Below are positions 4,950 to 19,595 of a stretch of DNA of 64,000 nucleotides, piece after piece. The notes below the pieces were generated by a model. That model was not told the origin of the DNA, ran no database searches, and saw only the letters and a list, made by a program, of their open reading frames with translations. Source of the DNA: Palleronia sp. THAF1 (GTDB taxonomy: Bacteria > Pseudomonadota > Alphaproteobacteria > Rhodobacterales > Rhodobacteraceae); the NCBI RefSeq assembly GCF_009363795.1, contig NZ_CP045420.1:167001-231000 (forward strand), in the 5' to 3' direction. The position numbers and the translations under genes are program-made. Position 1 is the stretch's first letter, and each line of letters begins with the position of its first letter.

Positions 4950-4981
4950 GAAACCAAAGAGCAGTAGTGAGGAGTCTTACG

Positions 4982-5482: not shown

Positions 5483-5520
5483 CCTCCCAACACAATCCTC
5501 AACATCCAGAAGGAAAAACT

Positions 5521-6000
5521 ATGAGAAAAACGATAATTCTCTCGGCAGCAATGCTGTCACTGACCGCTCCGGTTTTCGCTGCGGGCAAGCATGAGGGCGG
5601 CCACGACGACGCTGAGATGGCGATCGGCATGCCTGCGGATGCGGACCAGGCCAGCCGGACGGTGGAGGTCTCGATGCTCGAAACCGATGATGGCGAAATG
5701 CTGTTCGAGCCGCGTAAGCTCACTTTTTCGGAGGGAGAAACGGTCCGTCTCGTGATCACCAATGATGGAGAGCAGGAACACGAATTCGTCCTCGACACCG
5801 CCGAAGCCAATCAGGAGCACAAGGAACTGATGGCAAGGTTCCCTGAAATGGAACACGACGATCCGAACGCCGTCCGGCTTCAGTCGGGCGAAGAGGGCGA
5901 AATCGTCTGGACCTTTGCGAACGAGGGTGAGTTCGAGTTTGCCTGCCTCATCCTCGGTCACTACGAGGCAGGCATGCACGGTCCCGTCGTGGTCGAGTGA
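5521..6000 (+). CDS. Cupredoxin-family copper protein (copy 2)
   Basis: 159 residues with a signal peptide ending near PVFAAG. It is a paralogue of the preceding gene: the same TRT(V)VEVSML entry strand, His in QEHEFVLD, and CLILGHYEAGM carrying the Cys, His and Met copper ligands. The mature N-terminus is His/Asp-rich (GKHEGGHDDAEM), adding possible copper sites. The two copies differ enough to be an old duplication. It probably acts in the periplasm with the multicopper oxidase and the CusF-like protein. It lies in the same operon, 38 nt after copy 1, behind AGAAGGA. Confidence 0.87.
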   Translation: MRKTIILSAAMLSLTAPVFAAGKHEGGHDDAEMAIGMPADADQASRTVEVSMLETDDGEMLFEPRKLTFSEGETVRLVITNDGEQEHEFVLDTAEANQEHKELMARFPEMEHDDPNAVRLQSGEEGEIVWTFANEGEFEFACLILGHYEAGMHGPVVVE

Positions 6001-6037
6001 ACAACCCTACTTCCCCTATCATACTAAGGAAAACAAC

Positions 6038-6331
6038 ATGAAGAAACTATTCATCTCGACTCTCTCCGCGACCGCATTTGCCGTTGCTGCGACCTCGTCC
6101 ATGTTGCTGGCGGCGGAGCCGACATTCACCAAAGGCAGTGTGAAAGCGCTAGATGCCGAAGCCGGAAAGGTGACGATCATCCACGAAGAACTCGTAGATC
6201 TCGACATGCCCGCCATGACAATGGTGTTTCGCGCGGACGAGGAAACCCTCGCACGCATGGCCGAAGGTCAGGACATCGAATTCGTTGCGGATCGCGTCGA
6301 AGGCAAGCTCACAGTCGTAGAGCTAAAGTAG
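6038..6331 (+). CDS. CusF-like periplasmic copper-binding protein
   Basis: 97 residues with a signal peptide (cleavage near LLAAE). The mature protein is a small OB-fold of the CusF/CusF_Ec type. The copper loop is recognisable as DMPAMTMVFRA, carrying the two Met ligands (M-x-M), with His in IIHEELVDL as a possible third ligand. The Trp that caps Cu(I) in E. coli CusF is replaced here (DMPAM instead of GWPAM), so the cation-pi contact would be missing. It probably hands Cu(I) to another periplasmic partner. It is the last gene of the copper operon, followed 9 nt later by a long palindrome. Confidence 0.85.
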   Translation: MKKLFISTLSATAFAVAATSSMLLAAEPTFTKGSVKALDAEAGKVTIIHEELVDLDMPAMTMVFRADEETLARMAEGQDIEFVADRVEGKLTVVELK

Positions 6332-6841: not shown

Positions 6842-6872
6842 TTGAACCTCTAGCTGGTGTAGGTCCCATCCT
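6842..6872 (+). promoter_or_regulatory. MerR-type promoter 1 (19-bp spacer)
   Basis: TTGAAC (-35), a 19-bp spacer, then CATCCT (-10). The spacer carries the imperfect dyad ACCTCTAG..GTGTAGGT. Spacers of 19 bp are the mark of promoters activated by DNA distortion by MerR-family metal sensors. The element is nearly the same as those at 8038, 18615 and, on the minus strand, 17029. It precedes the L,D-transpeptidase gene at 6935 by 62 nt. Confidence 0.75.
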
Positions 6873-6934
6873 ACTGCAAAGTGTCTCGAATTCTTCGGCG
6901 ACACCGAGCTAAATATTGAAGAGGGAAGCAAAGC

Positions 6935-7600
6935 ATGCTGACAAGACGCCATTTCATTGCAACGAGTTCCGCGCTGTTTTCGGCTGCGGCAGCAGGTCCC
7001 GCTCTTTCGAGCACCCAGCCGACTGCAGCGGAAAAGGCTGCTTGGGACGCGCAGGTGACACCGCCGGGCTTTGATCCGGCGACCTCCAATCCGTGGGGTC
7101 TGGACCCGCGGTTCCTGCCACAACGGGTCGTTGCGAACGACGGGCTGACTCCGGGCGACATCCATGTCGATGCAGTAGCGCGGTATCTCTATCATATCGA
7201 GGAAGGTGGGACTGCGATGCGCTATGGGGTGGCCATCGGGCGGGGCGATCTTTACGAGCCGGGCACCTACACGATCAAGCGCAAGGTCGAGTGGCCGCAC
7301 TGGACGCCAACCCAGTCGATGATCGAGCGCGAGCCCGAAGTCTATGCGCAGTACGAGGATGGAATGGAACCGGGTCCGAGCAATGCCTTGGGGTCGCGGG
7401 CGCTCTATCTCTATGTCGGAGACCGGGATACCTATCTGCGGATCCACGGTACGCCTTATCCACGGTCTATCGGTTCGCGGGCAAGTTCAGGGTGCGTCCG
7501 CATGGTTATGGCACACATCAACCAGCTTTACCCAAAGGTCGAGCTCGGTTCGACCGCGTATCTTTACTCGGCCGACGACAGCGTATCCCCGCGCAGTTGA
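6935..7600 (+). CDS. L,D-transpeptidase (YkuD domain), exported
   Basis: 221 residues. The N-terminus TRRHFIATSSALFSAAAAG is a twin-arginine-like signal. The YkuD catalytic motif is seen at HGTPYPRSIGS followed by SSGCVRM: the His and the active-site Cys (around residue 188) are both kept. Such enzymes form 3-3 crosslinks in peptidoglycan or attach proteins to it. The gene has its own MerR-type promoter (6842) and an AGAGGGAAG ribosome site, and is separate from the copper operon. A second L,D-transpeptidase (10514) lies behind another promoter of the same kind, so wall crosslinking appears to be metal-induced here. The substrate has not been determined. Confidence 0.88.
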   Translation: MLTRRHFIATSSALFSAAAAGPALSSTQPTAAEKAAWDAQVTPPGFDPATSNPWGLDPRFLPQRVVANDGLTPGDIHVDAVARYLYHIEEGGTAMRYGVAIGRGDLYEPGTYTIKRKVEWPHWTPTQSMIEREPEVYAQYEDGMEPGPSNALGSRALYLYVGDRDTYLRIHGTPYPRSIGSRASSGCVRMVMAHINQLYPKVELGSTAYLYSADDSVSPRS

Positions 7601-7682
7601 AGGCGCAAAACCACGGCTTCCGGCGCGAAATGTCGTCGGAAGTCGTCCGATCAGACCGTTGCGAGCCATCCGGTAGTGGTGG

Positions 7683-7958
7683 TCACGTTTCAGAAGGTGC
7701 GCAAATCTGTTGGCCACCCGGCGTGCGAAGCGGGAGTTCTGTTGTTTCGACACGGCCGGAATGGCGATACCAGTAGCACCCGTCTTCGGGTCTCAGCCGC
7801 GCCGAGGCAACATCCTGGTCAGATGCCGCCAAGCCAAAAAGTTGGGCCTGAAGCGCCTCTTGCTGACGTGTCTCGCGGGCTGTGCCATCAAGTGTCGAAC
7901 ACGCACCAAGGGCGAGCGTTGCCACAGCAAAGGTTATCGGTCTGAAGCGCATGGCCAT
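7683..7958 (-). CDS. Small lipoprotein of unknown function
   Basis: 91 residues from ATG 7958, behind GACGGGGA. The signal peptide ends in a lipobox (LALGAC, Cys around residue 18). The mature part (STLDGTARETRQQEALQAQ...) is short, helical and charged, with a C-terminal GCYWYRHSGRVETTELPLRT region. No family is recognised. The same frame is open further upstream to 7997, but those residues precede the signal peptide and are unlikely to be translated. It is convergent with the L,D-transpeptidase and divergent from the P-type ATPase promoter. Confidence 0.6.
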   Translation of the reverse strand: MAMRFRPITFAVATLALGACSTLDGTARETRQQEALQAQLFGLAASDQDVASARLRPEDGCYWYRHSGRVETTELPLRTPGGQQICAPSET

Positions 7959-8037
7959 TTCCCCGTCGTTTTCCGATTTGGAGATAACCTTTTCCATCCT
8001 CGCACTCGATGAACAACGCCAAAAACACGATTGGGTC

Positions 8038-8068
8038 TTGAAGCTCTAGCTACTGTAGGAGCTATCTC
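8038..8068 (+). promoter_or_regulatory. MerR-type promoter 2 (19-bp spacer)
   Basis: TTGAAG (-35), a 19-bp spacer and TATCTC (-10). The spacer holds the dyad AGCTCTAGC..GTAGGAGCT. It lies 33 nt before the start of the CPx-type ATPase and is the best-formed of the set for a Zn/Cd/Pb efflux promoter. It presumably answers to the MerR regulator at 17141. Confidence 0.8.
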
Positions 8069-8101
8069 AATGGCTGAACTCTCAAGTTTAGAGGTCCGCC
8101 A

Positions 8102-10450
8102 ATGCCTTCCGACCCCCATGTTCACGATCACGTCACCGCACATCGGCAAGAGATGGTTGGTTGTTGCGGCAACGCACACGATGACGAAGGGATGGCGACA
8201 ACCGCGACGACCCCGGGCGATGGGCGCAACTTCCAGGTGTTCGGTCTCGATTGCGCAGAGGAGATCGCAATTCTCAATCGCGTTGTCGGACCCGAGATCG
8301 GCGGCAAGGAGCATTTGGCCTTCGACGTCATCAACGGGCGCATGACCGTTCTGGACAGCGCCAAACCCGTCACAGACGACCGGGTTGCGGAACTGGTGGC
8401 AAGCACCGGCATGACGGCCCGGCCATGGGATGCCGAAACGGCTTCGCAAGATCAGGCAGCCCATCTTTCCCGTCAGAAACGATTTACTATGCTCAGCGGC
8501 GGTCTCTGGGCTGCAGGGTTCCTGTGGCACCTGATCGAGACCGGGCTGGGTGGTGCGGTCGGCATATTTTCTGGCCATGGCAATGCTCCGATGCCATTGA
8601 TCGAGGCAGGTCTGTTTGGAATCGCGATCCTGTTCGGTGTCTGGCTGGTTGCGCCCAAGGCTTGGTCTTCAGCGAGAAGGCTTTCGCCGGACATGAACCT
8701 GCTGATGGTCGTGGCGGTCGCGGGTGCGATCGGCCTGGGCGAGTTCTTCGAGGCGGCAACTGTGGCCTTCTTCTTCTCGCTTTCCCTCTATCTCGAAAGC
8801 TGGAGCGTCGGCCGGGCGCGCAATGCGGTCTCGGCCCTTTTGGACCTTGCGCCGCCGACGGCGCGACTGATCCGGGCGGACGGCACCGAGGCGGACGTTC
8901 CGGCGACAGATGTCGCTATCGGGGACCGTTTCATCGTGCGTGGCGGTGATCGCATCGCGCTTGACGGAGAGGTGACAGACGGTGCCGGCGCGGTCGATCA
9001 AGCCCCCATCACCGGCGAAAGCGCGCTGGTCGCCAAGGAACCCGGCGACGAGGTCTATGCCGGCACGATCAATGGCGAAGGCACGCTGACCGTGCGCGCG
9101 ACGAAACTTGCATCTGATACGGTGCTGGCAAAGATCATCCGCATGGTCGGCGACGCTCATGCCCGCCGCGCGCCGGTAGAGCAATGGGTGGCGAAATTCG
9201 CGCGCATCTACACGCCCGTGGTCATGGCAATTGCGGTCGCGATCGCGCTTTTACCGCCGCTTCTCTTCGGTGGCGCCTGGGACTCCTGGTTCTACAATGC
9301 CCTGGTGCTCCTGGTCATTGCCTGCCCCTGTGCTCTGGTGATCTCGACACCTGTGTCGATCGTCGCCTCGCTGACCGCGTCGGCGAGGGCGGGCGTGCTG
9401 ATCAAGGGCGGTGCCTATGTCGAGGCACCGGGCCGGACGACGGCGCTGGCAATGGATAAGACCGGCACGATCACGATGGGCGAGCCGGAGGTGGCGGGCA
9501 TCCACACCATAGGTCAGGTAAGCGAAACCGAACTCCTGTCCCTCGCAGCCGCACTGGAAGCGCGCTCGTCGCACCCGCTAGCGCGCGCGATCCTGGACCG
9601 CGCCGCAAGCGATGGTCTGACCGTCACCGCAGCGGACGAGACGCGTACAGTGCCCGGCCGGGGTCTGGAAGGGCAGTCTGATGGACGGTCGATTTGGCTG
9701 GGCTCCGACCGCTTCGCCGAGGAGAAAGGCCACGGCAAAGCGATCCCCGGCGACTTGCGGACCCGTATCGAAGCCAGCGGATCCACGCTCGTCGCAGTGG
9801 GTGACGATACCGGGGTCGTCGGCGTCCTGGAGCTGCGCGACCGGATCAGGCCGGATGCAAAGGGCGTCATCGCCGCGCTGCATGCGCAGGGCGTGAAGAC
9901 CATCGTCATGCTGACCGGAGACAACGAACGCACCGCGCGTGCCGTCGCGGCCGAAGTCGGGATCGACGAGGTCCGAGCCGAGCTTCTGCCGGAGGACAAG
10001 GTCACGGCCATCGAGGAACTGGTGGCCACTCACGACATGGTTGCGATGATCGGTGACGGTGTGAACGACGCGCCGGCGATGGCGCGGGCGCATTACGGCA
10101 TCGCCATGGGGGCTGTCGGCTCTGATGCGGCAATCGAGACAGCAGATATCGCGCTGATGACCGACGACATCGCCCGGGTTCCGTGGTTGATCGGTCATTC
10201 GCGCCGCACCATGTCGATCATTCATCAGAATATCGGCATTTCTCTGGCGACGAAAGCCGCGTTCGTCGTGGCCACTGCCTTCGGATTAGCGTCGATGTGG
10301 GGGGCCATCGCGGCCGATGTGGGCGTGTCGCTTTTGGTGGTGGCCAACGCCCTGCGACTGCTGAACGCTGCCGAACGCAAGTCACCCCCGAAAGGTGGCG
10401 AGCCGGTGGGCGAACGCATGGCACAGGGCGCGCTGGCGCACGGACATTGA
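8102..10450 (+). CDS. Zn/Cd/Pb-exporting P1B-type ATPase (ZntA/CadA class)
   Basis: 782 residues, start ATG 8102 behind TAGAGG. The landmarks are in family order: His-rich N-terminus with CCG (residues 6-25), a degenerate metal-binding domain with GLDCAEE (48-54) in place of GMDCxxC, TGES (304-307), the CPC membrane metal site (408-410), DKTGT phosphorylation loop (452-456), the SHP nucleotide motif (490-492), GDGVNDAP (around 650), and a last-helix Asp in DVGVSLLVVAN (around 739) typical of Zn(II)/Cd(II)/Pb(II) pumps rather than Cu(I) pumps. It exports divalent soft metals across the inner membrane. It is preceded by MerR-type promoter 2 and followed 63 nt later by an L,D-transpeptidase that is probably co-transcribed. 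Confidence 0.93.
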   Translation: MPSDPHVHDHVTAHRQEMVGCCGNAHDDEGMATTATTPGDGRNFQVFGLDCAEEIAILNRVVGPEIGGKEHLAFDVINGRMTVLDSAKPVTDDRVAELVASTGMTARPWDAETASQDQAAHLSRQKRFTMLSGGLWAAGFLWHLIETGLGGAVGIFSGHGNAPMPLIEAGLFGIAILFGVWLVAPKAWSSARRLSPDMNLLMVVAVAGAIGLGEFFEAATVAFFFSLSLYLESWSVGRARNAVSALLDLAPPTARLIRADGTEADVPATDVAIGDRFIVRGGDRIALDGEVTDGAGAVDQAPITGESALVAKEPGDEVYAGTINGEGTLTVRATKLASDTVLAKIIRMVGDAHARRAPVEQWVAKFARIYTPVVMAIAVAIALLPPLLFGGAWDSWFYNALVLLVIACPCALVISTPVSIVASLTASARAGVLIKGGAYVEAPGRTTALAMDKTGTITMGEPEVAGIHTIGQVSETELLSLAAALEARSSHPLARAILDRAASDGLTVTAADETRTVPGRGLEGQSDGRSIWLGSDRFAEEKGHGKAIPGDLRTRIEASGSTLVAVGDDTGVVGVLELRDRIRPDAKGVIAALHAQGVKTIVMLTGDNERTARAVAAEVGIDEVRAELLPEDKVTAIEELVATHDMVAMIGDGVNDAPAMARAHYGIAMGAVGSDAAIETADIALMTDDIARVPWLIGHSRRTMSIIHQNIGISLATKAAFVVATAFGLASMWGAIAADVGVSLLVVANALRLLNAAERKSPPKGGEPVGERMAQGALAHGH

Positions 10451-10513
10451 TCCGCACGCATTCTTGTGGCTTATCCGACGAAGTAGAGAACCTCGAAAAC
10501 GGGGCATCCATCG

Positions 10514-11026
10514 ATGCAGTATATCAGACTCACGAGACGGATCGCGCTGCTTGGCGCTGCGGCCACGCTTCTGTCGGCCTGTGCGACCAAGTTCCGCAGC
10601 TATGATGGCCCTCAGGTTTCACGCCTGCGGCTTTTCAAGGGAAGACGGTTGCTCGTTCTCGATGGCGCCGAAGGGCCCCTGCGCACCTATCCCATCGGAC
10701 TGGGTTTCGCACCGATCGGTCACAAACAGTTCGAAGGAGACGGACGGACGCCTGAGGGATCGTATGTCATCGACCGACGCAATCCCGACAGCCTGTTCCA
10801 CCTGTCGATCGGTATCTCCTATCCGAACGCGCAGGACCGGGCCTTCGCCGCCACTGAAGGCAAATCGCCCGGGGGCGACATCTTCATTCACGGCGGGCCG
10901 CGGCCCGGGATCGACCCGGTCGACAAGCGCGACTGGACGGCGGGCTGCATTTCGGTGACGGATCGGCAAATCGAGGAAATCTACGCCATAGTGCGGGATG
11001 GAACACCTATCGAAATTTATTCCTGA
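10514..11026 (+). CDS. L,D-transpeptidase lipoprotein
   Basis: 170 residues. The signal peptide ends in the lipobox LLSAC (Cys 23), so the enzyme is probably lipid-anchored. The YkuD core is present: DIFIHGGP with the His, and WTAGCISVTD with the active-site Cys (around residue 147). This is the short L,D-transpeptidase form with an HGG motif (ErfK/YafK-like). It follows the P-type ATPase by 63 nt and probably shares its metal-inducible promoter. Its 3' end overlaps the 3' end of lspA on the other strand by 10 bp. It is only distantly related to the L,D-transpeptidase at 6935. Confidence 0.87.
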   Translation: MQYIRLTRRIALLGAAATLLSACATKFRSYDGPQVSRLRLFKGRRLLVLDGAEGPLRTYPIGLGFAPIGHKQFEGDGRTPEGSYVIDRRNPDSLFHLSIGISYPNAQDRAFAATEGKSPGGDIFIHGGPRPGIDPVDKRDWTAGCISVTDRQIEEIYAIVRDGTPIEIYS

Positions 11027-11511
11027 CCAACCCTCGAGCTGTTCCCGTGCCGCTCGAAGACAGATGCCAAAAGCAGCAGCGCGACGCCGCAGACCACAAA
11101 GACATCCGCCAGATTGAAGGCGGGCCAGTGCATTTGCCCAGCATAGAAATCCAGGAAGTCAGTGACCCCGCCGAAGCGCACGCGGTCGATGACGTTGCCG
11201 AGCGCGCCGCCGATGATCGCCCCATAGGCCAATGCCTCGATCCGGCTGTCCGAGCGGTACAACATGATGGCCAGCCAGAGGCAGATACTCGAGGCAAGAA
11301 GCGAGAGACCCCACCATGGCGTACCGCCAAGCATGCCGAACGTCACGCCGTCGTTGCGCCCGAAGACAAGGTTGAAGCCCGGAAAAACGGCAATTTCGGA
11401 GCCCAAGGCATCGGCATTTGCGACGACAACTGCCTTAGTTGCCTGATCGGCGATGATGGCGGTAATCGCGCTGGTCAGGCCCAGAGCACGCGGGCTGTTC
11501 ATACTCGTCAT
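11017..11511 (-). CDS. lspA: Lipoprotein signal peptidase II (accessory copy)
   Basis: 164 residues, four membrane helices. The two catalytic aspartates lie in GNVIDRV and FNLADVFVVCG, the conserved LspA motifs. It cleaves lipoprotein signal peptides in the inner membrane. The start at 11511 is chosen for the GGATAAG site just before it, which also contains the stop of the ZIP gene; the open frame reaches further upstream inside that gene. It is the last gene of the nine-gene metal operon. Signal peptidase II genes in lead-resistance loci (PbrC) are a known parallel, which supports an accessory role beyond housekeeping. Several lipoproteins are encoded in this same island. Confidence 0.9.
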   Translation of the reverse strand: MTSMNSPRALGLTSAITAIIADQATKAVVVANADALGSEIAVFPGFNLVFGRNDGVTFGMLGGTPWWGLSLLASSICLWLAIMLYRSDSRIEALAYGAIIGGALGNVIDRVRFGGVTDFLDFYAGQMHWPAFNLADVFVVCGVALLLLASVFERHGNSSRVGQE

Positions 11512-11515
11512 GATC

Positions 11516-12298
11516 TTATCCAAGCCAGACATCGAGGAACAGCATGAGAACCAGCCCGACCGACAGGCCAAGGGTCGCGCGGTTCTGGTTGCCGCTTCGG
11601 TGGGTTTCGGGAATGATCTCGTGGCTGATAACGTACAGCATCGCACCGGCCGCGAAGGCGAGACCCCAGGGCAGAAGCGGTTGCGAAAGGCTGATGATGC
11701 CCGCGCCGATAAGCCCGCCGACAGGTTCGACCATCCCGGTCAGAGCAGCGATGCCCCACGCACGCCACTTCGAATAGCCTTCGCCCAGTAGCGAAACCGC
11801 CACCGCGAGCCCTTCGGGCGCGTTCTGCAGGCCGATCCCGAGCGCGAGCGGCAGGCCGCCGGAAAGGCCGTTGGCACCGAAGCCGACCCCGACGGCGAGG
11901 CCCTCGGGGAAGTTGTGGATCGTGATCGCGAAGATGAACAGCCACACACGCCTCAGGGCGACCGCGTCCGGCCCCTCCCGGCCCGTCGAGAAGTGCTCGT
12001 GCGGTAGCTTCTCGTTCAACATAGCGACCGCGCCCATACCGAGCAGGATCGCGACACAGACAATGGCGGCTGGCGCGGCACCGTTCTCGAACTGACCTTC
12101 GGCCGCGTCCAAGGCCGGGATGATCAGCGAGAAGAACGACGCGGCCAGCATGACGCCGGCTGCAAAGCCGAGCGACAGGTCCCTGGTGGCCCGCGATGGG
12201 ATACGACCGAACAGCACCGGTACTGCGCCGATTGCGGTCAGCGAACCGGCCGCGAGGCTTCCGAAGAAGCCTAGCGCTATCGGAGATAGGGATTCCAA
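11516..12298 (-). CDS. ZIP-family metal transporter
   Basis: 260 residues with about eight membrane helices. The family hallmarks are HNFPEGLAVGV in helix 4 and NAPEGLAVAV in helix 5, which form the metal path. A His-containing loop (PHEHFSTGREG) lies between helices 3 and 4. ZIP proteins usually bring divalent metal such as Zn(II) into the cytoplasm, so its place in a resistance operon is notable: it may supply Zn under competition, or act in the opposite direction. It follows DUF411 by 27 nt and precedes lspA by 4 nt. Confidence 0.9.
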   Translation of the reverse strand: MESLSPIALGFFGSLAAGSLTAIGAVPVLFGRIPSRATRDLSLGFAAGVMLAASFFSLIIPALDAAEGQFENGAAPAAIVCVAILLGMGAVAMLNEKLPHEHFSTGREGPDAVALRRVWLFIFAITIHNFPEGLAVGVGFGANGLSGGLPLALGIGLQNAPEGLAVAVSLLGEGYSKWRAWGIAALTGMVEPVGGLIGAGIISLSQPLLPWGLAFAAGAMLYVISHEIIPETHRSGNQNRATLGLSVGLVLMLFLDVWLG

Positions 12299-12325
12299 AT
12301 CAGATTTCCTTCCGAAGGCCTTGGG

Positions 12326-12781
12326 TCAGTTGCCGGGATAGCTGGCAAAAACCTCGGTCGAGCCATCTTTATTGATCAGAAAGACATCGTATGCATCGCG
12401 ACGACTGCCCTGATCCATGCCCGGGGACCCCAGCGGCATCTTTGGTACGGCGAGGCCCACGGCCTCCGGGCGTTCCTCAAGCAATCTGGATATGTCCGCA
12501 GCCGGGACATGGCCTTCGATCACGTAACCATCGATCAGGCCCGTATGGCAGGACACCATCCGCTGAGGAACGCCGTTGTCGAGCTTGAAGCGGACAAGAG
12601 ATCCACCGAACATGTTGTGCCCGGTCGTCTCGAAGCCGTTTTCGTCGAGATGGTTCATCCAGGCGACACAGCAGCCGCAGCTGTTGGTCTTGTAGACCTC
12701 GATCTGCGATTGCTCTGCGGAAACCTTCGCAACGGGAAAAAATGAGAGGGCGAATGACAGGACCATGATCGGTCGTTTCAT
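12326..12781 (-). CDS. DUF411 periplasmic metal-binding protein
   Basis: 151 residues with a signal peptide ending near KVSAE. The mature protein starts with a thioredoxin-like strand and the TNSCGCCVAW motif (around residue 33), the marker of DUF411 proteins found in copper and other metal operons. A second Cys/His pair is in VSCHTGLIDGYVIEGHVPA. It probably binds Cu(I) or another soft metal in the periplasm; the biochemical role of the family is not settled. It starts 3 nt after the M23 peptidase stop. Confidence 0.88.
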   Translation of the reverse strand: MKRPIMVLSFALSFFPVAKVSAEQSQIEVYKTNSCGCCVAWMNHLDENGFETTGHNMFGGSLVRFKLDNGVPQRMVSCHTGLIDGYVIEGHVPAADISRLLEERPEAVGLAVPKMPLGSPGMDQGSRRDAYDVFLINKDGSTEVFASYPGN

Positions 12782-12784
12782 TGG

Positions 12785-14158
12785 TTAAAGCCTTTCGTGT
12801 GAGGTTTCTGCAAGCAAGGCCGCGAGTTGTTCGTTAAGAAGAGCCCGTGCCGCGCCGAGGCGCGCGACGGCGCCGTCGTTCTGCGCTTCTTGCTTTGCGG
12901 CCTGCGCGAGACGTTCGTCTGAAAGAGGGTCGGTGGGCCGTCCGTCGACACGCACCTCGTAGTGCAAGTTGGGACCAGTCGCCGTACCAGTCGCGCCGAC
13001 ACGGCCGATCGTATCGCCCGCCGCCACGCGATCGCCAACCGCCAGCCGGTCTGGAACCGCACTGAGATGCGCGTAGCGGGTCATGGTCTCGGAGCCATGC
13101 GCGATTTCAACGACCCGCCCGTAACCGCCGCGTCGCCCGATGAAGCTGATACGGCCGGGCGCGGTTGCCGAAATCGGTGTTCCGCGCGGTGCGGCGAAAT
13201 CCACCCCAGTATGCATCCGAGTATCGCCATAGACCGGATGCGTCCGGCGACCGAAGACCGAGCTTAGGCGCGCGCCTTCGACGGGTTGAGCAAAGACCCG
13301 CATCACCTCGCCGTCCCGATAGATCGTAGCCTGTCCGGTGCCATCGTCGGGCCACACGATTTCGAATTGCGTATCGCCGAGGTCGAGCACCGCGAAATTC
13401 AGTTCGGGTTGCCCGATCACTCCGCCTTCGACCCGTTGCTCGCGCCACATCAACCTAATGACCTCGCCTCCCGAGAGGTCCCGCCGAAAATTTACCGTGC
13501 CGCCAAGCATCTCTGCCAGATCGACTGCAAAGCGCGCGGGGATACCTGCGTCGGCGAGCGCCCCGAAGACGGAACTCTCGATGTGTGCCTCCGCCGCGAG
13601 GATCACCAGCTCGGGTTCGGGGGAAAGAACGCGGGTCGCTATATTTGGCCCGAAGACGGTTTCGATCTGAACGCCGTCGTCGACATCCAGCAACACCCGT
13701 CGCAAGGCTCCTTTGATCTCCGTCTCGACCGTCAGACCATGTCCTGGACGTAGCCTGCGCAAATCATATTCCGCTGCAAGCGCAAGGGAGACCTCAGCGC
13801 GCTCAGAACCTTCAAGCCCTGCCTCCGCCAGGAGCACGTCGAGTGTTTCGCCAGCGGCGACTTCGCGCGACCAGACCTTTAGAAGCGGCGCGATCACCGG
13901 GGCAGATGTCCCGGCGATCTCAGCGACGGTAAGAACTGGGGTTGTGAAGGTAGGTACTACTTCGTCCTGATCGAATTTCGGATCGAGGGCAGCCGCGCTG
14001 GCAAAGGTGGGCACCTCCATAGGCTCCGGCATCCAGGAAGCGGCGGCGCGAAGCGCGAGCGGAACAGGTTCCTGTCCCGTCTTGTCCAGTAAAAGGATAC
14101 CGCCCGTTACGAAGCCGCCCGCCGCGAATATTCCTGTCACCAGATACCTGATTTTCAT
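12785..14158 (-). CDS. M23-family peptidoglycan peptidase-like protein, membrane-anchored
   Basis: 457 residues. One N-terminal membrane segment (residues 4-26) is followed by an OapA/LysM-like middle part (GETLDVLLAEAGL) and a C-terminal LytM domain. The zinc ligands HTGVD (HxxxD) and the His of LHYEV are present, and YAHLS supplies another active-site His. The first His of the usual HLH motif is replaced by Asn (GPNLHYEV), so activity is uncertain and a regulatory role is possible. Its start overlaps the SCO1 stop by 4 nt (ATGA), showing tight coupling inside the metal operon. The family cuts peptide crosslinks of the cell wall. Confidence 0.87.
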   Translation of the reverse strand: MKIRYLVTGIFAAGGFVTGGILLLDKTGQEPVPLALRAAASWMPEPMEVPTFASAAALDPKFDQDEVVPTFTTPVLTVAEIAGTSAPVIAPLLKVWSREVAAGETLDVLLAEAGLEGSERAEVSLALAAEYDLRRLRPGHGLTVETEIKGALRRVLLDVDDGVQIETVFGPNIATRVLSPEPELVILAAEAHIESSVFGALADAGIPARFAVDLAEMLGGTVNFRRDLSGGEVIRLMWREQRVEGGVIGQPELNFAVLDLGDTQFEIVWPDDGTGQATIYRDGEVMRVFAQPVEGARLSSVFGRRTHPVYGDTRMHTGVDFAAPRGTPISATAPGRISFIGRRGGYGRVVEIAHGSETMTRYAHLSAVPDRLAVGDRVAAGDTIGRVGATGTATGPNLHYEVRVDGRPTDPLSDERLAQAAKQEAQNDGAVARLGAARALLNEQLAALLAETSHERL

Positions 14159-14781
14159 GTCGCCTCTCCCGTTTCTTCTTTCATCGCGCGCCGGATCTTC
14201 GGCACCGCGAATTCCCGCGGTTCGTGATAGTCGATGGTCGTGACGAACCGGCCCTCGACGTCGAACAAGAATACGCTCGCCGTGTGGTTCATCGTGTAGT
14301 CACCGCCCTCTGTCGGTACTTTCTCGTAGTTTGCGCGGAAACCTTCAACCGCACGGGCGATCTGGTCGTCGGCGCCGGTCCATCCCTCGATCGCGGGATG
14401 AAAGTAGTCGACATATTCCGCCATGGCCTCGACCGTGTCGCGGTCGGGATCGACCGTGATGAACACGACATCAAGCCGTTGGGCATCGTCGCCCAGTGCG
14501 TCCAACCAGTCCGAGATATCTGCCAGCGTGGTCGGGCAGACGTCCGGGCAATAGGTGAAGCCGAAGAACACCAGGCTGGGTCGCCCTACCAGCGTGTCCG
14601 GGCCGACATCTTCGCCGTCCTGGTTCGTCAACCGGAACTCCATCTCGTCAAGCGGTAGTGGACGTGTACCGATCTCCGGCGGCGCTCCAGGTCCATCCAC
14701 GCGCCACCAGCCCACAAAAAGCACAAGGCCGACCACCGCGATTGCCGCAGCGGCGTAGGTCAGGAATGGACGACGCCGCAT
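14155..14781 (-). CDS. SCO1/SenC copper-delivery protein (copy 2)
   Basis: 208 residues, one N-terminal membrane anchor (residues 8-27) and a periplasmic thioredoxin fold. The copper and redox residues are present: the Cys pair in YCPDVCPTTL and the distant His in NHTASVFLFD. SCO proteins load copper into the CuA site of cytochrome oxidase and can act as thiol oxidoreductases. The operon carries two SCO genes; this one directly follows a PCuAC gene (TGATG overlap), the partner expected for CuA assembly. Placement in a resistance island suggests keeping oxidase supplied during metal stress. Confidence 0.92.
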   Translation of the reverse strand: MRRRPFLTYAAAAIAVVGLVLFVGWWRVDGPGAPPEIGTRPLPLDEMEFRLTNQDGEDVGPDTLVGRPSLVFFGFTYCPDVCPTTLADISDWLDALGDDAQRLDVVFITVDPDRDTVEAMAEYVDYFHPAIEGWTGADDQIARAVEGFRANYEKVPTEGGDYTMNHTASVFLFDVEGRFVTTIDYHEPREFAVPKIRRAMKEETGEAT

Positions 14782-15230
14782 CAGCCTTCAGGTCCACGCG
14801 CGGCAATGCCGAGGACCGGCACCTCGATTTCGATCTCAACGCCATCCGAGAAGATCAGCGTCATCGGGACGGTTTCGCCCTCTTTCATGGGCTCTTGTAG
14901 CTTCATCAGCATCGCGTGAAGCCCGCCAGGTTCCAGTGAAACGTTTTCTCCCGGCGCAACGGTGATTTCTCCCGCCGGGGACATGGTACTGATACCGCGT
15001 TCGTCCGTTTCGGTCAGATGAACTTCCGCCATCATGGCGACAGGTGTCTCGACGGCCGTCAATGTCACGGGCTCTGCGCCCACGTTGCGCAATGTCAGAT
15101 AGGCTGCACCCGGTCGACTTTTCCCGATTGAGGCTCGCGCCCATGGCTCTTCGACGACGATGTCGTCGGTGCCGGCCGACGCAGTGTTGGACAGGCTTGC
15201 GGTCGCAGCCAGACTAGCCAGAATAGTCAT
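14781..15230 (-). CDS. PCuAC-type periplasmic copper chaperone
   Basis: 149 residues from ATG 15230 (GGAAAG just upstream), with a signal peptide ending TASAG. The mature domain has the PCuAC copper motif: His in EVHLTETD, Met in ISTMSP, and the H-x-M pair in GLHAML. It carries Cu(I) in the periplasm and usually works with SCO1 on cytochrome oxidase. Its stop codon overlaps the start of the SCO1 gene. The open frame extends to 15281, but the extra residues precede the signal peptide. Confidence 0.9.
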   Translation of the reverse strand: MTILASLAATASLSNTASAGTDDIVVEEPWARASIGKSRPGAAYLTLRNVGAEPVTLTAVETPVAMMAEVHLTETDERGISTMSPAGEITVAPGENVSLEPGGLHAMLMKLQEPMKEGETVPMTLIFSDGVEIEIEVPVLGIAARGPEG

Positions 15231-15277
15231 CACTTTCCAAGTCACGTGTTGATCTCTCAATTTTTGGTTCGGTCCAA

Positions 15278-15937
15278 TCACGCGCCAGCCGCCGCGACCT
15301 CTTCGGCAACCAAAGCGCGCAACCCCGCTTCGCCGAACGGCTCGACCGGTTTGCTGTTGACGAAGAAGGTCGGCGTCTGCCGCACGCCAACGGCTTCAAC
15401 ATCGGCGCGATCCTGGTTGAGGATGCCGATCGTCTGCGGCGCCTTCACCTGCATTTCCGCGGCTTCGATGTCCAGACCGGCCTCGGCGGCGATTCCCAGT
15501 ATCAGGCCGGGCTCTGGCGCGCCGTGGGACGCCCACCGGGGCTGCTCGCGTAGGACGGCTTCCAGGACCGGTAGATAAACATCCTGCATCCGAGCCGCTT
15601 CGAGTACCCGCACTGCTTCCTCGGACGCTGCACCATGGAACGGGGTATAGCGAATCACGAGACGCACAGTTCCGTCATACTCGGCCAGGATATCCTTGAT
15701 GATCGGGTGGAACGCTCGGCACGCCTCGCAGGCCGGGTCGAAGAACTCGACGATCGTGACGGGCGCGTCCTCGGCACCCAGCACGGGAGAATACGGACGG
15801 ACCAGCGTTTCAGCGATTTCGGGCGTGACGGCTTGGTTTTGGGCAACCGGCGCGGGCCGCGTTACGAACCAGGCGGCTATAGTGAATAGCACCAGGGCGA
15901 GCGCTAGAACAGAAAGGATCACGGGGCGGCGGGTCAT
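15278..15937 (-). CDS. DsbA-like thiol oxidoreductase, exported
   Basis: 219 residues starting at ATG 15937, which overlaps the stop of the DsbB gene (ATGA). An N-terminal membrane segment or uncleaved signal (residues 5-24) leads into a thioredoxin domain with the CEAC active site in DPACEACRAFHP and the cis-Pro loop TPTFFVN. It belongs to the DsbA/DsbG-like group that oxidises or isomerises disulfides in the periplasm. The neighbouring DsbB-like gene should reoxidise it. It may protect the Cys-rich copper proteins of this operon from metal-driven misoxidation, but that is inference. Confidence 0.9.
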   Translation of the reverse strand: MTRRPVILSVLALALVLFTIAAWFVTRPAPVAQNQAVTPEIAETLVRPYSPVLGAEDAPVTIVEFFDPACEACRAFHPIIKDILAEYDGTVRLVIRYTPFHGAASEEAVRVLEAARMQDVYLPVLEAVLREQPRWASHGAPEPGLILGIAAEAGLDIEAAEMQVKAPQTIGILNQDRADVEAVGVRQTPTFFVNSKPVEPFGEAGLRALVAEEVAAAGA

Positions 15938-16362
15938 GGTTTTCTTTCTTTGAGTGAAGCGACGGACAATGCAGCGATAAACGCGAAAGCCAGAAGCGAT
16001 AGCAGCGGGATCGGCATGCCGAGGATCAACTGGTTTTCGTCCGTGCAGGACGGTCCACTGGCAGTGCAAGGTTGGACACGTTCAGGCAGCAGACCGGTAT
16101 AAAGCCCCAGATGCCACAACGCGATCGCACCACCACCAAGGGACAGAGCCAAGGCATATCGCCCAACACGCAAGTCGTTCCACCAAAGGCCGAGACCCAG
16201 GACAATCGCGATCGGAAACATGAAAGCCCGCTGAAACCAGCACAGATTGCAAGGCGTCTGGCCCAGAACCTCACCGATGAAAAGCACGGCGAGCGAGGAG
16301 AACAACGCAACAACCCAAGCCCCCGAAAGCGCCATTTCTGCGGAGGGTGTCGACCTCGTCAC
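15934..16362 (-). CDS. DsbB-like disulfide bond formation membrane protein
   Basis: 142 residues with four membrane helices. The first Cys pair is TPCNLCWFQR, the second is in the periplasmic loop QPCTASGPSC. It reoxidises DsbA using membrane quinones. The start is taken as GTG 16362, which overlaps the stop of the upstream SCO1 gene (GTGA); a longer frame to 16419 lies entirely within that gene. It forms a coupled pair with the downstream DsbA-like gene. Confidence 0.88.
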   Translation of the reverse strand: MTRSTPSAEMALSGAWVVALFSSLAVLFIGEVLGQTPCNLCWFQRAFMFPIAIVLGLGLWWNDLRVGRYALALSLGGGAIALWHLGLYTGLLPERVQPCTASGPSCTDENQLILGMPIPLLSLLAFAFIAALSVASLKERKP

Positions 16363-16955
16363 GGCAATAGCTCCCGCAGGTCCGCAAGAATGGCTTCGGC
16401 GGGCGTTCCGTAGGCCCAAGTCGTGACAAAGTCGGCATCCGGACCGAAGAGCAGCAGATGCGATGTGTGAGCCATCGTGTAGCCGTCCGGCGCGGCGGCC
16501 TCTTCGATCTTCTCATAGAAGATGGGGAAGTTCCGGGCCGTCCGTTCGATTTGATCGGGTGTCCCGGTAAGGCCGATGATGTCCGCGTCGAACATCGGCA
16601 CGTAATTGGCGAGAGCGACCGGCGTGTCGCGTTCGGGATAGATGGAGACGAAAAGCGGCTGAACCTTATCGGCATCGTCTCCGAGCGTGTCGACGACGAC
16701 CGCGACTTCGGCGAGAGTTGTTGGACAGACATCGGGGCAATTCGCGAACCCGAAGAAAACCAGCATCCATCGTCCCGCAAAATCATCCTGTGTCCGGACC
16801 ATTCCGGTATGATCCGTAAGTTCGAACTCGGCCTGAATCGCATTTCCGGTCTCCCGCGCGGTGTCGAAGCGGTAGTCGACCCAAAGCAGAAGCCACAGAA
16901 AAAAAAGTGCGGCGATACCTACCAGCGTCCAAAGGGATTTCTGCAGAAATGTCAT
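16359..16955 (-). CDS. SCO1/SenC copper-delivery protein (copy 1)
   Basis: 198 residues from ATG 16955, with one membrane anchor (residues 8-26) and the SCO thioredoxin fold. FANCPDVCPTTL carries the Cys pair and AHTSHLLLFG the copper-binding His. The frame is open to 17045, but MerR-type promoter 3 (16999-17029) lies inside that extension, so the start at 16955 is preferred. It is the first gene of a nine-gene operon that runs to lspA with gaps no longer than 47 nt. Two SCO copies may serve different targets. Confidence 0.92.
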   Translation of the reverse strand: MTFLQKSLWTLVGIAALFFLWLLLWVDYRFDTARETGNAIQAEFELTDHTGMVRTQDDFAGRWMLVFFGFANCPDVCPTTLAEVAVVVDTLGDDADKVQPLFVSIYPERDTPVALANYVPMFDADIIGLTGTPDQIERTARNFPIFYEKIEEAAAPDGYTMAHTSHLLLFGPDADFVTTWAYGTPAEAILADLRELLP

Positions 16956-16998
16956 TCTCAATGTGCCTTGGGATCTCTGGGGGGCCTTGTAAGCGCGG

Positions 16999-17029
16999 GA
17001 GATACATCCTGCAGCTGCTAGAGGTTCAA
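16999..17029 (-). promoter_or_regulatory. MerR-type promoter 3 (minus strand, 19-bp spacer)
   Basis: On the minus strand, TTGAAC (17029-17024), a 19-bp spacer and TATCTC (17004-16999). The spacer contains CTCTAGCAGCTGCAGG, the same dyad as promoters 1 and 2. It stands 43 nt before the SCO1 start and would drive the whole operon down to lspA. It is divergent from merR, whose own operator copy begins 74 bp away. Confidence 0.8.
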
Positions 17030-17102
17030 GCCATTTCCATCGCATAAGTCGTTTTGTCGCAAATCTGTGATTGGAGCGAAGAACGCTTGTCAGTCCACGA
17101 TC

Positions 17103-17133
17103 CGGAACCTACTGGAGCTGTAGCTTTAAAGAG
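17103..17133 (+). promoter_or_regulatory. Operator-like copy before merR (degenerate promoter)
   Basis: CGGAACCTACTGGAGCTGTAGC aligns without gaps to the spacer of promoter 4, but the -35 is CGGAAC and the -10 position reads AAAGAG. The dyad is thus kept while the promoter hexamers are poor. This would suit autoregulation at a low constant level, or binding without strong activation. It lies 8-38 nt before the merR start. Confidence 0.55.
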
Positions 17134-17140
17134 GTTGGAC

Positions 17141-17569
17141 ATGCTGACGATTGGTAATCTCGCCAAGAAGACCGGGACCAAGGTCCAGACGATCCGCTAC
17201 TATGAACAGATCGGCTTGATGCCCGAGCCGGGGCGAACGGCGGGCGGTCAGCGTCGCTACGGGGAAGACGAACTCGACCGGTTGGCTTTCGTGCGCCATG
17301 CCCGTCAGCTGGGCTTCACGCTCGAAGCCATCAGGGAGCTTCTAGACCTGAGCGATGAACCCGACCGATCCTGCGAGAACGCTGACGCAATCGCGCGTCG
17401 GCAGCTTCGTCAGGTTGAGCAGCGCATCGCGCGTCTCGAGGCCTTGCGCACCGAGTTGAAACGCATGGTGCGCGAATGCGCTGGCGGACAAACGGCCGAT
17501 TGTCGAGTGCTTGAGGTCCTGCGGGACCATTCGGAATGCTTAACCGATCACGATGAGATTGGTGCATAG
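17141..17569 (+). CDS. MerR-family Zn/Cd/Pb sensor (ZntR/CadR/PbrR type)
   Basis: 142 residues. The N-terminal winged helix has the MerR signature (TVQTIRYYEQIGL, then GGQRRYGEDELDRL). A long dimer helix follows (residues 80-115), then a metal loop. Cys residues lie in DRSCENAD (around 79), VRECAGGQ (around 113) and TADCRVLEVL (around 121); this spacing is that of the ZntR, CadR and PbrR group and unlike CueR, whose loop has C-x7-C followed by no such VLExLxxH segment. It binds operators within 19-bp spacers and activates when metal is bound. Ribosome site AGAGG; ATG 17141. Confidence 0.9.
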   Translation: MLTIGNLAKKTGTKVQTIRYYEQIGLMPEPGRTAGGQRRYGEDELDRLAFVRHARQLGFTLEAIRELLDLSDEPDRSCENADAIARRQLRQVEQRIARLEALRTELKRMVRECAGGQTADCRVLEVLRDHSECLTDHDEIGA

Positions 17570-17635
17570 GCACTGCCATACGGGAACAATGAGGCCGGGC
17601 GATCCGTTCGCCCTTCGCCGCTAGGGAGACACGCG

Positions 17636-18277
17636 TTGAGCGCAAGCATTCAGCCGAAAGACGCGCGTCAACGTCGTATCCTGTGGATCGTGCTCTTGCT
17701 GAATGCGGCGATTGCGGTGGCGTTCTTCATAACCGGCGCGTTCGGCGACTCCACGTCGCTGATCGCCAACGGCCTCGACAACACATCCGACGCGTTCGTC
17801 TATGCCCTGAGCCTGTTCGCGCTGTCCCGGTCGGCCAGATGGAAGCGGATCGCAGCGACCGTTTCCGGGAGTGTGCTGATCCTGTTCGCCATCGGTATTC
17901 TGTTCGACGCCGGCCGCCGTTACCTCGAAGGATCGGAACCGCTGGGCCCTGTGATGATCGTGATGGCGCTGATTGCCGCCGCTGTGAACCTCGTCTGCGT
18001 CGTTCTCTTGCGCAGGATCTCCGATCCGGATGTCAACGTGCGCGCCGCCAACATTTTCACGATGAACGACTTTCTGGCAAATGCCGGCATTATCATCGCC
18101 GGTATGCTCGTCGCTTGGCTGGGGACCAACTGGCCCGATCTGGCGGTCGGTGTCGCCGTGGCTGTCGTGGCCGCCTGGGGCGGGATTGAGATATTGAAGG
18201 ATGCGCATGGAGAGCATCACGAGGCTGTCCACGACGATCCTGTCGGTCAGAAAACTCGCCAGCGAACCCGCGACTGA
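17636..18277 (+). CDS. Short CDF-like cation transporter
   Basis: 213 residues starting at TTG 17636 behind TAGGGAG. Five to six membrane helices are followed by almost no cytoplasmic domain (ends in [11 protein letters not shown]). The CDF-type metal motifs are altered: NGLDNTSD in helix 2 and NDFLANAG in helix 5, where HxxxD or DxxxD would be standard. It is annotated as a cation diffusion facilitator-like protein that would move divalent metal across the inner membrane. It lies 66 nt after merR and overlaps closely with the YnfA-like gene, so these three probably share a transcript. Confidence 0.8.
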
Positions 18278-18278
18278 C

Positions 18279-18605
18279 ATGCACGCAGCTGTTGCTTATC
18301 CCTTAGCTGCATTGGCCGAGATTGCCGGTTGCTTTGCAATTTGGGCGTGGTGGCGTCTTGGGGCCACGTCACTCTGGCTGGTGCCCGGAATCCTATCGCT
18401 TGCAATCTTCGGTTGGCTGCTTGCACAGGTCGAGACCGCTGTCGCGGGACGTGCCTTTGCGGCCTATGGCGGCGTCTATATTGCGGCGTCCGTGCTCTGG
18501 ATGTGGCTGGCCGAAGGCCAACGCCCGGACAGATGGGACCTGGTAGGAACCGCAGTTTGCCTGATCGGCGCAATGATCATTCTAGCAGCGCCGCGGGGGA
18601 CGTGA
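18279..18605 (+). CDS. YnfA/UPF0060-family small membrane protein
   Basis: 108 residues, four membrane helices, of the YnfA (UPF0060) family. The N-terminus [20 protein letters not shown] and the C-terminal [16 protein letters not shown] are typical. The family is related to small multidrug-resistance transporters; its metal role is unproven. The start ATG 18279 follows the CDF stop by 1 nt, indicating coupling. The frame is open to 18201 but that part lies inside the CDF gene. MerR-type promoter 4 begins 9 nt after its stop. Confidence 0.85.
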
Positions 18606-18614
18606 TCAGAGGGC

Positions 18615-18645
18615 TTGAACCTATAGTTGCTGTAGCCCTTACATC
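18615..18645 (+). promoter_or_regulatory. MerR-type promoter 4 (19-bp spacer)
   Basis: TTGAAC (-35), a 19-bp spacer and TACATC (-10). The spacer has CTATAGTTGCTGTAG, close to the classical CTATAG dyad of Pb/Cd/Zn MerR operators. It lies 29 nt before the CzcD-like CDF gene at 18675. Confidence 0.78.
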
Positions 18646-18674: not shown

Positions 18675-19595
18675 GTGCCGCACGATCACAGCCACGCCCA
18701 CCTTGACCCCGATTCCGGCGACCGCCGCGTCTCCATAGCGATTTGGGCCAACGGTATTCTGACGGTCGCGCAAATCGTGGGCGGAATCCTGTCCGGCAGC
18801 CTCGCCCTGATCGCCGACGCGTTGCACAACTTTTCGGATATGGCATCGTTGGTCATCGCGTTCGTGGCACGAAAGATCGCGCGGCGTCCCGCGGATGAAC
18901 GCATGACCTTTGGCTACGGCCGGGTCGAGATCGTCGCCGCTCTCATCAACTACACGACGCTGATCCTCATCGGTTTCTATCTCATCTACGAAGGAGGAAT
19001 GCGGATCATCGACCCGCCGGAGGTCGGCGCCTGGACCGTGGTGATACTCGGCGGGGTGGCACTGGTCGTGGATACCCTGACGGCGGTTCTCACCTACTCG
19101 ATGCAGAAGGGCAGCGTGAACATCCGCGCGCTGTTCCTGCATAACCTGTCGGACGCACTGGCCTCGGTCGCCGTGATCGTGGCTGGGACACTCATCCTGC
19201 TCTACGACATGTGGTGGGTCGATCCTGCAATCACGATCGGAATCGCGCTCTATATCCTCTATCTCGCCGTTACCGAGATCGGTGGCCCGATCCGCACGCT
19301 GATGCTGGGCAGCCCGCCGGACATGGACAACGGGGCGGTCATCGATGCGATGCGCGACGAAGATGGCGTGGCTGATGTCCACCACGTCCATCTCTGGCAG
19401 ATGCAAGAGCATGAGGCCGCTCTCGACTGCCATGTCGTGCTGACCGATGGGGGCTGGGACCGGATCGAAGACATCAAAGCCGCGATCAAAAACCGCCTCA
19501 AAGAGGAATTCGGCATCGGGCATTCAAGCCTCGAATTCGAGCATGAAAACCGCTCGCACGAGAACGCCGACCTCTACGGCCACGGCAAGTCCTAA
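18675..19595 (+). CDS. CDF-family divalent metal exporter (CzcD/ZitB-like)
   Basis: 306 residues starting at GTG 18675 behind GAGGAG. A His-rich N-terminus (PHDHSHAHLD) is followed by six membrane helices. The zinc-site motifs are HNFSD in helix 2 and HNLSD in helix 5 (HxxxD pairs), as in Zn/Co/Cd exporters. A C-terminal cytoplasmic ferredoxin-like domain (VADVHHVHLWQM) completes the standard architecture. It exports Zn(II) or related ions by proton exchange. It has its own MerR-type promoter and is followed by a STAS-like gene. Confidence 0.93.
   Translation: MPHDHSHAHLDPDSGDRRVSIAIWANGILTVAQIVGGILSGSLALIADALHNFSDMASLVIAFVARKIARRPADERMTFGYGRVEIVAALINYTTLILIGFYLIYEGGMRIIDPPEVGAWTVVILGGVALVVDTLTAVLTYSMQKGSVNIRALFLHNLSDALASVAVIVAGTLILLYDMWWVDPAITIGIALYILYLAVTEIGGPIRTLMLGSPPDMDNGAVIDAMRDEDGVADVHHVHLWQMQEHEAALDCHVVLTDGGWDRIEDIKAAIKNRLKEEFGIGHSSLEFEHENRSHENADLYGHGKS

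Follow-up and report, generated by a model that had tools for sequence, protein, structure and literature searches.

Does one metal-sensing regulator control several transcription units scattered through a single genomic island, and which functions besides metal export would such a regulator command? The question is raised by a 64,000-nt stretch of contig NZ_CP045420.1 from the marine bacterium Palleronia sp. THAF1 (the window, whose positions serve as coordinates throughout), which encodes a MerR-family protein at 17141–17569. A preliminary description of this DNA proposed four promoters sharing a dyad and an exact 19-bp spacer, a fifth copy of the operator, and control of these sites by the MerR protein. 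Comparative sequence analysis leads us to consider it likely, with a probability of roughly 0.85, that this protein is a divalent-metal sensor controlling four activated transcription units together with its own operon (Table 1).

The four elements are present, letter for letter, at 6842, 8038 and 18615 on the plus strand and at 17029 on the minus strand, where the preliminary description had placed them. Every one of them combines TTGAA(C/G), a CT(C/A)TAG half-site and a second half of GTAG or GCAG followed by G or C, and in all four the distance from TTGAA(C/G) to the next hexamer is 19 bp. The pattern TTGAASCTMTAGNNNSTGYAGS, which is circular in part because it was written from the four sites themselves, has four exact matches in the 3,340,253-base genome, all within the island. 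Allowing one or two mismatches adds no further match; allowing three adds seven, of which one is the fifth site in its minus-strand reading and six lie outside the island; the reversed pattern, serving as control, has 47 genome matches at three or fewer mismatches.

A matrix built from 64 distinct sites in related loci provides a less circular test. Its training set omits sites with more than four mismatches, matches lying more than 100 bp from the first SCO gene (SCOa), and the loci of the nearest kin, L012 and L013; it retains L074 and L079, which are also from Palleronia. Run on the window and on the upstream stretches of relatives' loci, the matrix ranks the four sites first to fourth in the window (8038, 39.8 bits; 17029 minus, 39.3; 18615, 36.9; 6842, 25.2), and each of the ten best places is one of the five sites, read in one direction or the other. 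Simulated Markov-1 windows score at most 13.9 in a set of 60 (mean maximum 1.1) and at most 15.5 in 300 more; none of these 300 reaches the 25.2 bits of the weakest activation site. Matrix information resides in TTGAA, in the dyad and in TA at columns 26–27, and the conservation of this TA at spacer 19 in the training set (T 0.96, A 0.98) shows that the 19-bp spacing is real. Site 6842 has CA rather than TA in its -10 element, and its counterparts in L012 and L013 read TATCCT. The 64 training sites also share an A-rich stretch 5' of the -35 element, at columns -9 to -4 before TTGAA, which is possibly an UP element. Identity to the published CadR 23-mer was dropped as evidence for sites, the best places being the two readings of an unrelated 15/22 match.

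The preliminary description had suggested searching the genome and related loci with a motif made from the sites; relatives do carry the site, and ahead of the same units. The comparison covers 82 loci, 80 of them around MerR relatives at least 85% identical (L012–L091, the best 80 of 517) and two on plasmids (L096 and L097). The best match within 200 bp upstream was counted for gene copies with a full upstream stretch, leaving out those with less than 200 bp and alignments that start after residue 12 or cover too little. The site precedes SCOa in 70 of 70 copies (three or fewer mismatches, 60–80 bp upstream), the ATPase gene in 15 of 15, the gene for L,D-transpeptidase 1 (LDT1) in 10 of 17 at three or fewer mismatches, and the transglutaminase gene of a transglutaminase-CDF2 unit in 48 of 62 at three or fewer mismatches and in all 62 at four or fewer. 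It lies directly upstream of CDF exporter 2 (CDF2) in only 4 of 73 copies, because the transglutaminase gene usually stands ahead of CDF2 in relatives' gene orders. L,D-transpeptidase 2 (LDT2) has a site in one of 14 copies, at three mismatches, and is read as a member of the ATPase operon because it starts 64 bp past the ATPase gene. Fourteen other families of the cluster (LspA, ZIP, DUF411, M23, SCOb, PCuAC, DsbA, DsbB, short CDF, YnfA, STAS, Lnt, penicillin acylase and COX assembly) have the site in none of 654 copies at four or fewer mismatches.

At first, 63 of 106 sites had no named target; many were then found 5' of the transglutaminase gene or of ccmF. The latter has a site within 300 bp in 13 of 14 copies (a 15th has too little upstream sequence), a count that replaces an early 2 of 11, an artefact of the 200-bp limit. 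In relatives, the products encoded beneath the same site also include a transglutaminase, CcmF and a third L,D-transpeptidase type. Copies of ccmF, a cytochrome c biogenesis gene, with the operator upstream are seen at L025 2783, L047 2921 and L088 2829. The third L,D-transpeptidase type, 35–40% identical to LDT1, lies beneath the operator at L016 13946, L080 13946 and L088 13587, and Pfam confirms the L016 copy.

The merR/site cluster recurs in many marine Rhodobacterales loci and on conjugative plasmids, and the sites could be recent copies of one promoter segment carried on mobile cassettes, not all of them active control elements. The occurrence on plasmids, the near-identity of some loci and the weak -10 element of 6842 are what would be expected if so. 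However, the columns flanking the site are low in information, apart from the A-rich upstream stretch and a second, weak one ahead of the genes, and orthologous sites vary at free positions while retaining the core, as expected of selection on the core. Recent copying is accordingly a very improbable explanation. A search of the merR-operon intergenic DNA against plasmids gave no similarity match.

The regulator has the features expected of a metal sensor. Its MerR helix-turn-helix and DNA-binding domain matches are both above cut-off (PF13411, 75.4 bits; PF09278, 78.7 bits), and its closest solved structures are CadR (96.5 bits) and 5gpe (90.7 bits), which we take to be PbrR691. Cys78, Cys113 and Cys121 align with the metal cysteines of CadR and are invariant in 39 distinct orthologs, as are V15, Q16 and T17 of the recognition helix. 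The preliminary description counted a single MerR gene; four proteins of the genome have a MerR_1 domain at E<=0.001, and what stands of that claim is that the cysteine triad occurs in the 17141 protein alone, the other three being free of C-terminal cysteines. In every NCBIfam metal-regulator equivalog matched, the protein falls under the curated cut-off: 113.7 bits against 151.45 for TIGR02047 (CadR-PbrR), 120.8 against 143 for NF007069 (Zn-responsive), 119.5 against 147.4 for TIGR02044 (CueR) and 110.8 against 150.85 for TIGR02051 (MerR). Domains, cysteines and the 19-bp-spacer dyad fit a member of the metal-sensing MerR class (COG0789 type) that belongs to none of the named equivalogs.

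The half-sites are partly in keeping with this protein. In the training set, position 5 is C (0.52) or A (0.43) and position 14 is T (0.52) or G (0.37), with CT(A/C)(T/C)AG...CTGTAG the commonest arrangement. The accessible portion of PMC5045206 gives a correlation between residues and operator letters: at recognition-helix position 14, Glu is paired with G5/C14, whereas Gln is paired with A5 (CadR-PbrR-like) and T14. When its numbering is fitted through the selected CadR site AACCCTGTAGTTACTACAGGGTT (from the accessible portion of PMC12301328), V-Q-T of the MerR protein occupies positions 13–15, and the A5/T14 variant of the half-site appears to agree with Gln at the DNA-contact position. The sites do not follow the CadR type in the training set, where G is outside the three commonest letters at position 5 and C has a frequency of 0.08 at position 14.

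Site and regulator also occur together across genomes. Among 149 genomes of the family, a 27-base site at one or fewer mismatches, a stricter pattern that leaves out 6842 itself, is found in 24, with 48 sites versus one for the reversed control. It is present in 18 of 18 genomes having a MerR at least 75% identical and in 6 of the 131 others; with the limit at 70%, the counts are 19 of 24 and 5 of 125. LDT1 relatives were compared at 30 loci (one per genome, from 49 listed matches, with second copies, such as those in G086 and G048, not included): where the genome has a MerR of 75% identity or more, 8 of 13 loci show the site, as against none of 17 in the rest. ATPase relatives carry it in 18 of 18 loci, 16 of which are in genomes of the 75% class, one in G038 (74% MerR) and one in G006.

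The sites might instead answer to another MerR-family regulator encoded elsewhere, leaving the 17141 protein in charge of its own divergent operon only. There are three candidates in the genome, and six of the 24 site-bearing genomes have no MerR of at least 75% identity. None of the three candidates has the cysteine triad, however; the ATPase and LDT1 sites have the same core as the site beside merR; and site presence tracks this MerR across genomes. As to the six exceptions, G025 (70%) and G121 (67%) have the nearer MerR homologs, and in G130 and G128 the site is no more than 30 bp away from a more distant homolog (53% or 48% identity). Control by a different regulator thus seems highly unlikely. 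Some sites in G075, G031 and G049 are on contigs without a listed MerR match; these are drafts, in which distance is not proven. In G035, contigs C2 and C4 duplicate the MerR gene, the ATPase gene, LDT1 and three operator sites, with identical site sequences.

Several observations weigh against control of all of these sites by the one protein. Near-identical mobile copies inflate the locus counts, the 70 SCOa copies having 24 distinct 31-mers; LDT1 is without a site at the limit used in 7 of 17 copies of the first locus set and in 5 of 13 loci of MerR-bearing genomes; and identity to the CadR consensus reaches 14/22 only at 17029, a level also met by chance. The Fisher p values for co-occurrence (2e-18 at the 75% limit, 3e-15 at 70%) both ignore ancestry and joint transfer of the site with its regulator, and the matrix used for LDT1 relatives (p 2e-4) and ATPase relatives was partly trained on the same genomes. 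G137 has the site and no MerR at E<=1e-30, and the best MerR match of G087 is 42% identical. In G006 (locus L111), where the MerR is 62% identical, a 46% identical ATPase paralog has a similar 19-bp-spacer site, so that related regulators may use similar sites and related regulons may exist. NCBIfam family models put the regulator in no metal class, and C5/G14, found in about half of the sites, matches none of the pairs in the accessible portion of PMC5045206. On balance, control of the sites by the MerR protein, which the preliminary description had offered as an inference, is well supported but unproven; it is backed by site conservation, co-occurrence, the sole cysteine triad, the conserved ligands and the partly fitting half-site.

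The fifth site, at 17103, appears to serve a different purpose. Its 3' end is 11 bp ahead of merR, and CTACANNNACTGTAG is present at four or fewer mismatches in 35 of 38 distinct merR upstream sequences, the window included. A match 132–139 bp upstream of merR, which is the reverse reading of site 3, was excluded from this count. Since the anchor was picked by eye, the conservation of its own letters is in part built in; this does not apply to the TTG 17 bp 5' of the operator TA, whose three letters recur in 31, 33 and 32 of the 35 distinct sequences aligned. The site scores 10.8 bits in the window, a value met by 5 of 300 simulated windows and weak when taken alone. The merR promoter has a normal 17-bp spacer and its -10 element lies inside the operator, which is the geometry of repression, and we predict that the fifth site is a conserved operator for autorepression of merR. 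The preliminary description's fifth copy is in this way upheld as an operator and refined in its role. It might alternatively be a fifth activated promoter, by which merR would regulate itself positively: TTGAAG or TTAAAG precedes the dyad at activation spacing in L090, L080 and L084. This is unlikely, as no TA stands at spacer 19, where a purine-rich stretch reads as a ribosome-binding site, and the TTG is instead kept at 17 bp.

Taken together, these features suggest a mechanism of the MerR/CadR type, which is already known. At the four activation sites, a MerR dimer would occupy the dyad between TTGAA(C/G) and the -10 element. Metal bound to Cys78, Cys113 and Cys121 would distort the DNA and allow the sigma-70 polymerase to start, as in MerR, CueR and PbrR. 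At the fifth site, the dimer would cover the -10 element of the merR promoter and repress it, and expression of the CDF and YnfA genes that follow merR would be limited as well.

The most probable inducer is Cd, Pb or Zn. CueR, by comparison, is a monovalent sensor, and a response to copper deserves consideration. The large operon holds PCuAC, two SCO proteins, DUF411 and DsbA/B; it lies beside a copper module (3591–6331) of a multicopper oxidase, two cupredoxin-type proteins and a CusF-like protein; and the NCBIfam CueR model scores close to the best. However, the genes of the copper module have no site among the ten best matrix places of the window, and the exporters look to be of Zn/Cd type, in part by a sequence signature. 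In addition, a cysteine at the Cys78 position marks sensors of +2 ions (PMC3431237, accessible portion), and the half-site is like that of CadR/PbrR and not the CueR-like ACCTTCC (PMC1526738, accessible portion). A copper-responsive regulon is therefore improbable, and divalent Zn, Cd or Pb remains the preferred signal.

Comparison with characterized systems, drawn mostly from the accessible portions of the cited papers, places this regulon close to CadR of Pseudomonas, the regulator of cadA, with which it shares the dyad in a 19-bp spacer (PMC1526738) and a P-type ATPase target. CadR of P. aeruginosa has a zinc-ribbon protein as second target (PMC12301328), and in L096 a zinc-ribbon gene follows the ATPase gene; this zf-TFIIB gene of a Sulfitobacter plasmid (L096 8264–8551) lies between ATPase and LDT2. 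Unlike the half-sites described above, that of CadR is CTGTAG...CTACAG (PMC12301328). Two targets are named for the P. aeruginosa protein in the accessible portion of PMC12301328, versus four activated units here, and it has no effect on its own promoter in vitro (PMC12301328), whereas merR has a separate operator. In CadR systems the regulator gene is either not regulated or only repressed (PMC1526738). The pbr system of Cupriavidus metallidurans is also similar, having a divalent MerR-type regulator, a 19-bp spacer, a P-type ATPase and a predicted signal peptidase, PbrC, which parallels LspA (PMC1526738, PMC3431237). PbrR differs in needing C14, C79 and C134 (PMC3431237), whereas the recognition helix of the 17141 protein has no cysteine, and the pbr locus as listed in the accessible portion of PMC1526738 has no L,D-transpeptidase, SCO, PCuAC or Dsb genes.

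CueR/HmrR regulators likewise activate from 19-bp spacers, in some species at several dispersed sites per genome (PMC1526738), but the CueR signal is ACCTTCCC-(5)-TGGAAGGT (PMC1526738) and its recognition residues are different (PMC5045206). MerR of the Tn501 type acts on its own promoter as well as activating a divergent operon (PMC1526738), which is also the arrangement predicted here. In Tn501 mer, however, the protein bound between the two neighbouring divergent promoters makes contact with both of them (PMC1526738), whereas here the two divergent promoters have separate operators with about 75 bp between them (17029 to 17103).

The genes of the island are listed in Table 1. The nine-gene operon named in the preliminary description is borne out by Pfam, which gives SCO, LspA, DsbB, DsbA, PCuAC, SCO, M23, DUF411 and ZIP. 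The nearest solved structures of the ATPase are 7qbz, which has SPC in place of CPC, and 4umv; from the signature K...D in its last membrane helices, we take it to be of the Zn/Cd/Pb (P1B-2) class. CDF2 has HxxxD in both helices when aligned to ZnT8, and the short CDF transporter has no Pfam match to the dimerisation domain. The genome has ten YkuD genes, two of which are in this island. An outer membrane efflux protein (OEP) is matched in part by each of two adjacent open reading frames (1854–2759 and 2853–3560), as though one gene had been split in two.

Table 1. Predicted regulatory elements and genes of the island, in window positions
Feature	Position	Strand	Basis
Activation site 1: TTGAAC-19 bp-CATCCT, spacer dyad, 93 bp 5' of LDT1	6842–6872	+	letters, genome pattern, matrix
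LDT1: YkuD, SSGC motif, twin-arginine-like leader	6935–7600	+	PF03734 84.7 bits; leader and motif from sequence
Activation site 2: TTGAAG-19 bp-TATCTC, 64 bp 5' of ATPase gene	8038–8068	+	letters, genome pattern, matrix
Heavy-metal P-type ATPase with CPC	8102–10450	+	TIGR01525 592 bits, TIGR01512 513 bits; PDB 7qbz, 4umv
LDT2: lipobox LSAC, DpaA/YafK-like	10514–11026	+	PF03734 65.9 bits; NF040599 37.2 bits, under cut-off 365
LspA (signal peptidase II), gene 9 of operon	11017–11511	-	PF01252 121.4 bits
ZIP family metal transporter	11516–12298	-	PF02535; NF003243 136 bits, under cut-off
DUF411 protein	12326–12781	-	PF04214
M23 peptidase	12785–14158	-	PF01551
SCO1/SenC protein b (SCOb)	14155–14781	-	PF02630 172.2 bits
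PCu(A)C copper chaperone	14781–15245	-	PF04314
DsbA-like thioredoxin protein	15278–15937	-	PF13462
DsbB-like protein	15934–16335	-	PF02600
SCO1/SenC protein a (SCOa), gene 1 of nine-gene operon	16359–16955	-	PF02630 161.3 bits
Activation site 3: TTGAAC-19 bp-TATCTC, 74 bp 5' of SCOa	16999–17029	-	letters, genome pattern, matrix
merR promoter, 17-bp spacer: TTGTCA 17087–17092, TACTGG 17110–17115	17087–17115	+	conserved TTG 17 bp from TA
Fifth operator (dyad around CTACTGGAGCTGTAG) overlapping the merR -10, predicted to mediate autorepression	17103–17129	+	conserved in 35/38
MerR-family metal regulator; Cys78/Cys113/Cys121; V15 Q16 T17 in recognition helix	17141–17569	+	PF13411, PF09278
Short CDF-family transporter, 213 aa, behind merR	17636–18277	+	PF01545 64.3 bits; TIGR01297 85.4 bits
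YnfA family membrane protein	18279–18605	+	NF002586 127.7 bits, above cut-off
Activation site 4: TTGAAC-19 bp-TACATC, 60 bp 5' of CDF2	18615–18645	+	letters, genome pattern, matrix
CDF2: HD-HD metal site, Zn/Cd type	18675–19595	+	PF01545 161.6 bits, PF16916 33.7 bits
SpoIIAA-like (STAS) protein, likely CDF2 operon	19611–19973	+	PF11964

The products of the regulon would export metal, through the P1B ATPase and two CDF proteins, and would repair or rebuild the envelope, through two L,D-transpeptidases, an M23 peptidase, LspA, DsbA/B and the SCO/PCuAC copper chaperones. Copper has been shown to inhibit DpaA and is said to act likewise on other L,D-transpeptidases (PMC8263019, accessible portion); we infer, as a guess, that the regulon allows the chemistry of the envelope to continue under metal load. 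In this tentative proposal, which we hold to be somewhat short of an even chance, exporters are combined with spare copies of thiol and cell-wall enzymes vulnerable to poisoning by toxic metals: L,D-transpeptidases with their catalytic cysteine, DsbA/B and SCO proteins, and in relatives also the transglutaminase and CcmF. Peptidoglycan cross-linking and disulfide or cytochrome assembly would then go on in the presence of the metal.

MerR-type metal regulons usually comprise few genes, mostly a transporter and the regulator (PMC1526738, accessible portion). Among the papers listed by a literature search, judged by titles and abstract openings, there was no earlier description of the present one. 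What appears to be new is its breadth, in that exporters are joined by two L,D-transpeptidases, an M23 peptidase, LspA, DsbA/B and SCO/PCuAC chaperones, as well as its two-operator layout, conserved over many genera. Cell-wall and copper-handling genes are not usually known beneath such metal switches, and the gene content permits a direct test of whether these cells defend the cell wall as a target of metals. With its altered half-site, this naturally occurring regulator-operator pair could also serve to probe the rules by which MerR proteins recognize DNA.

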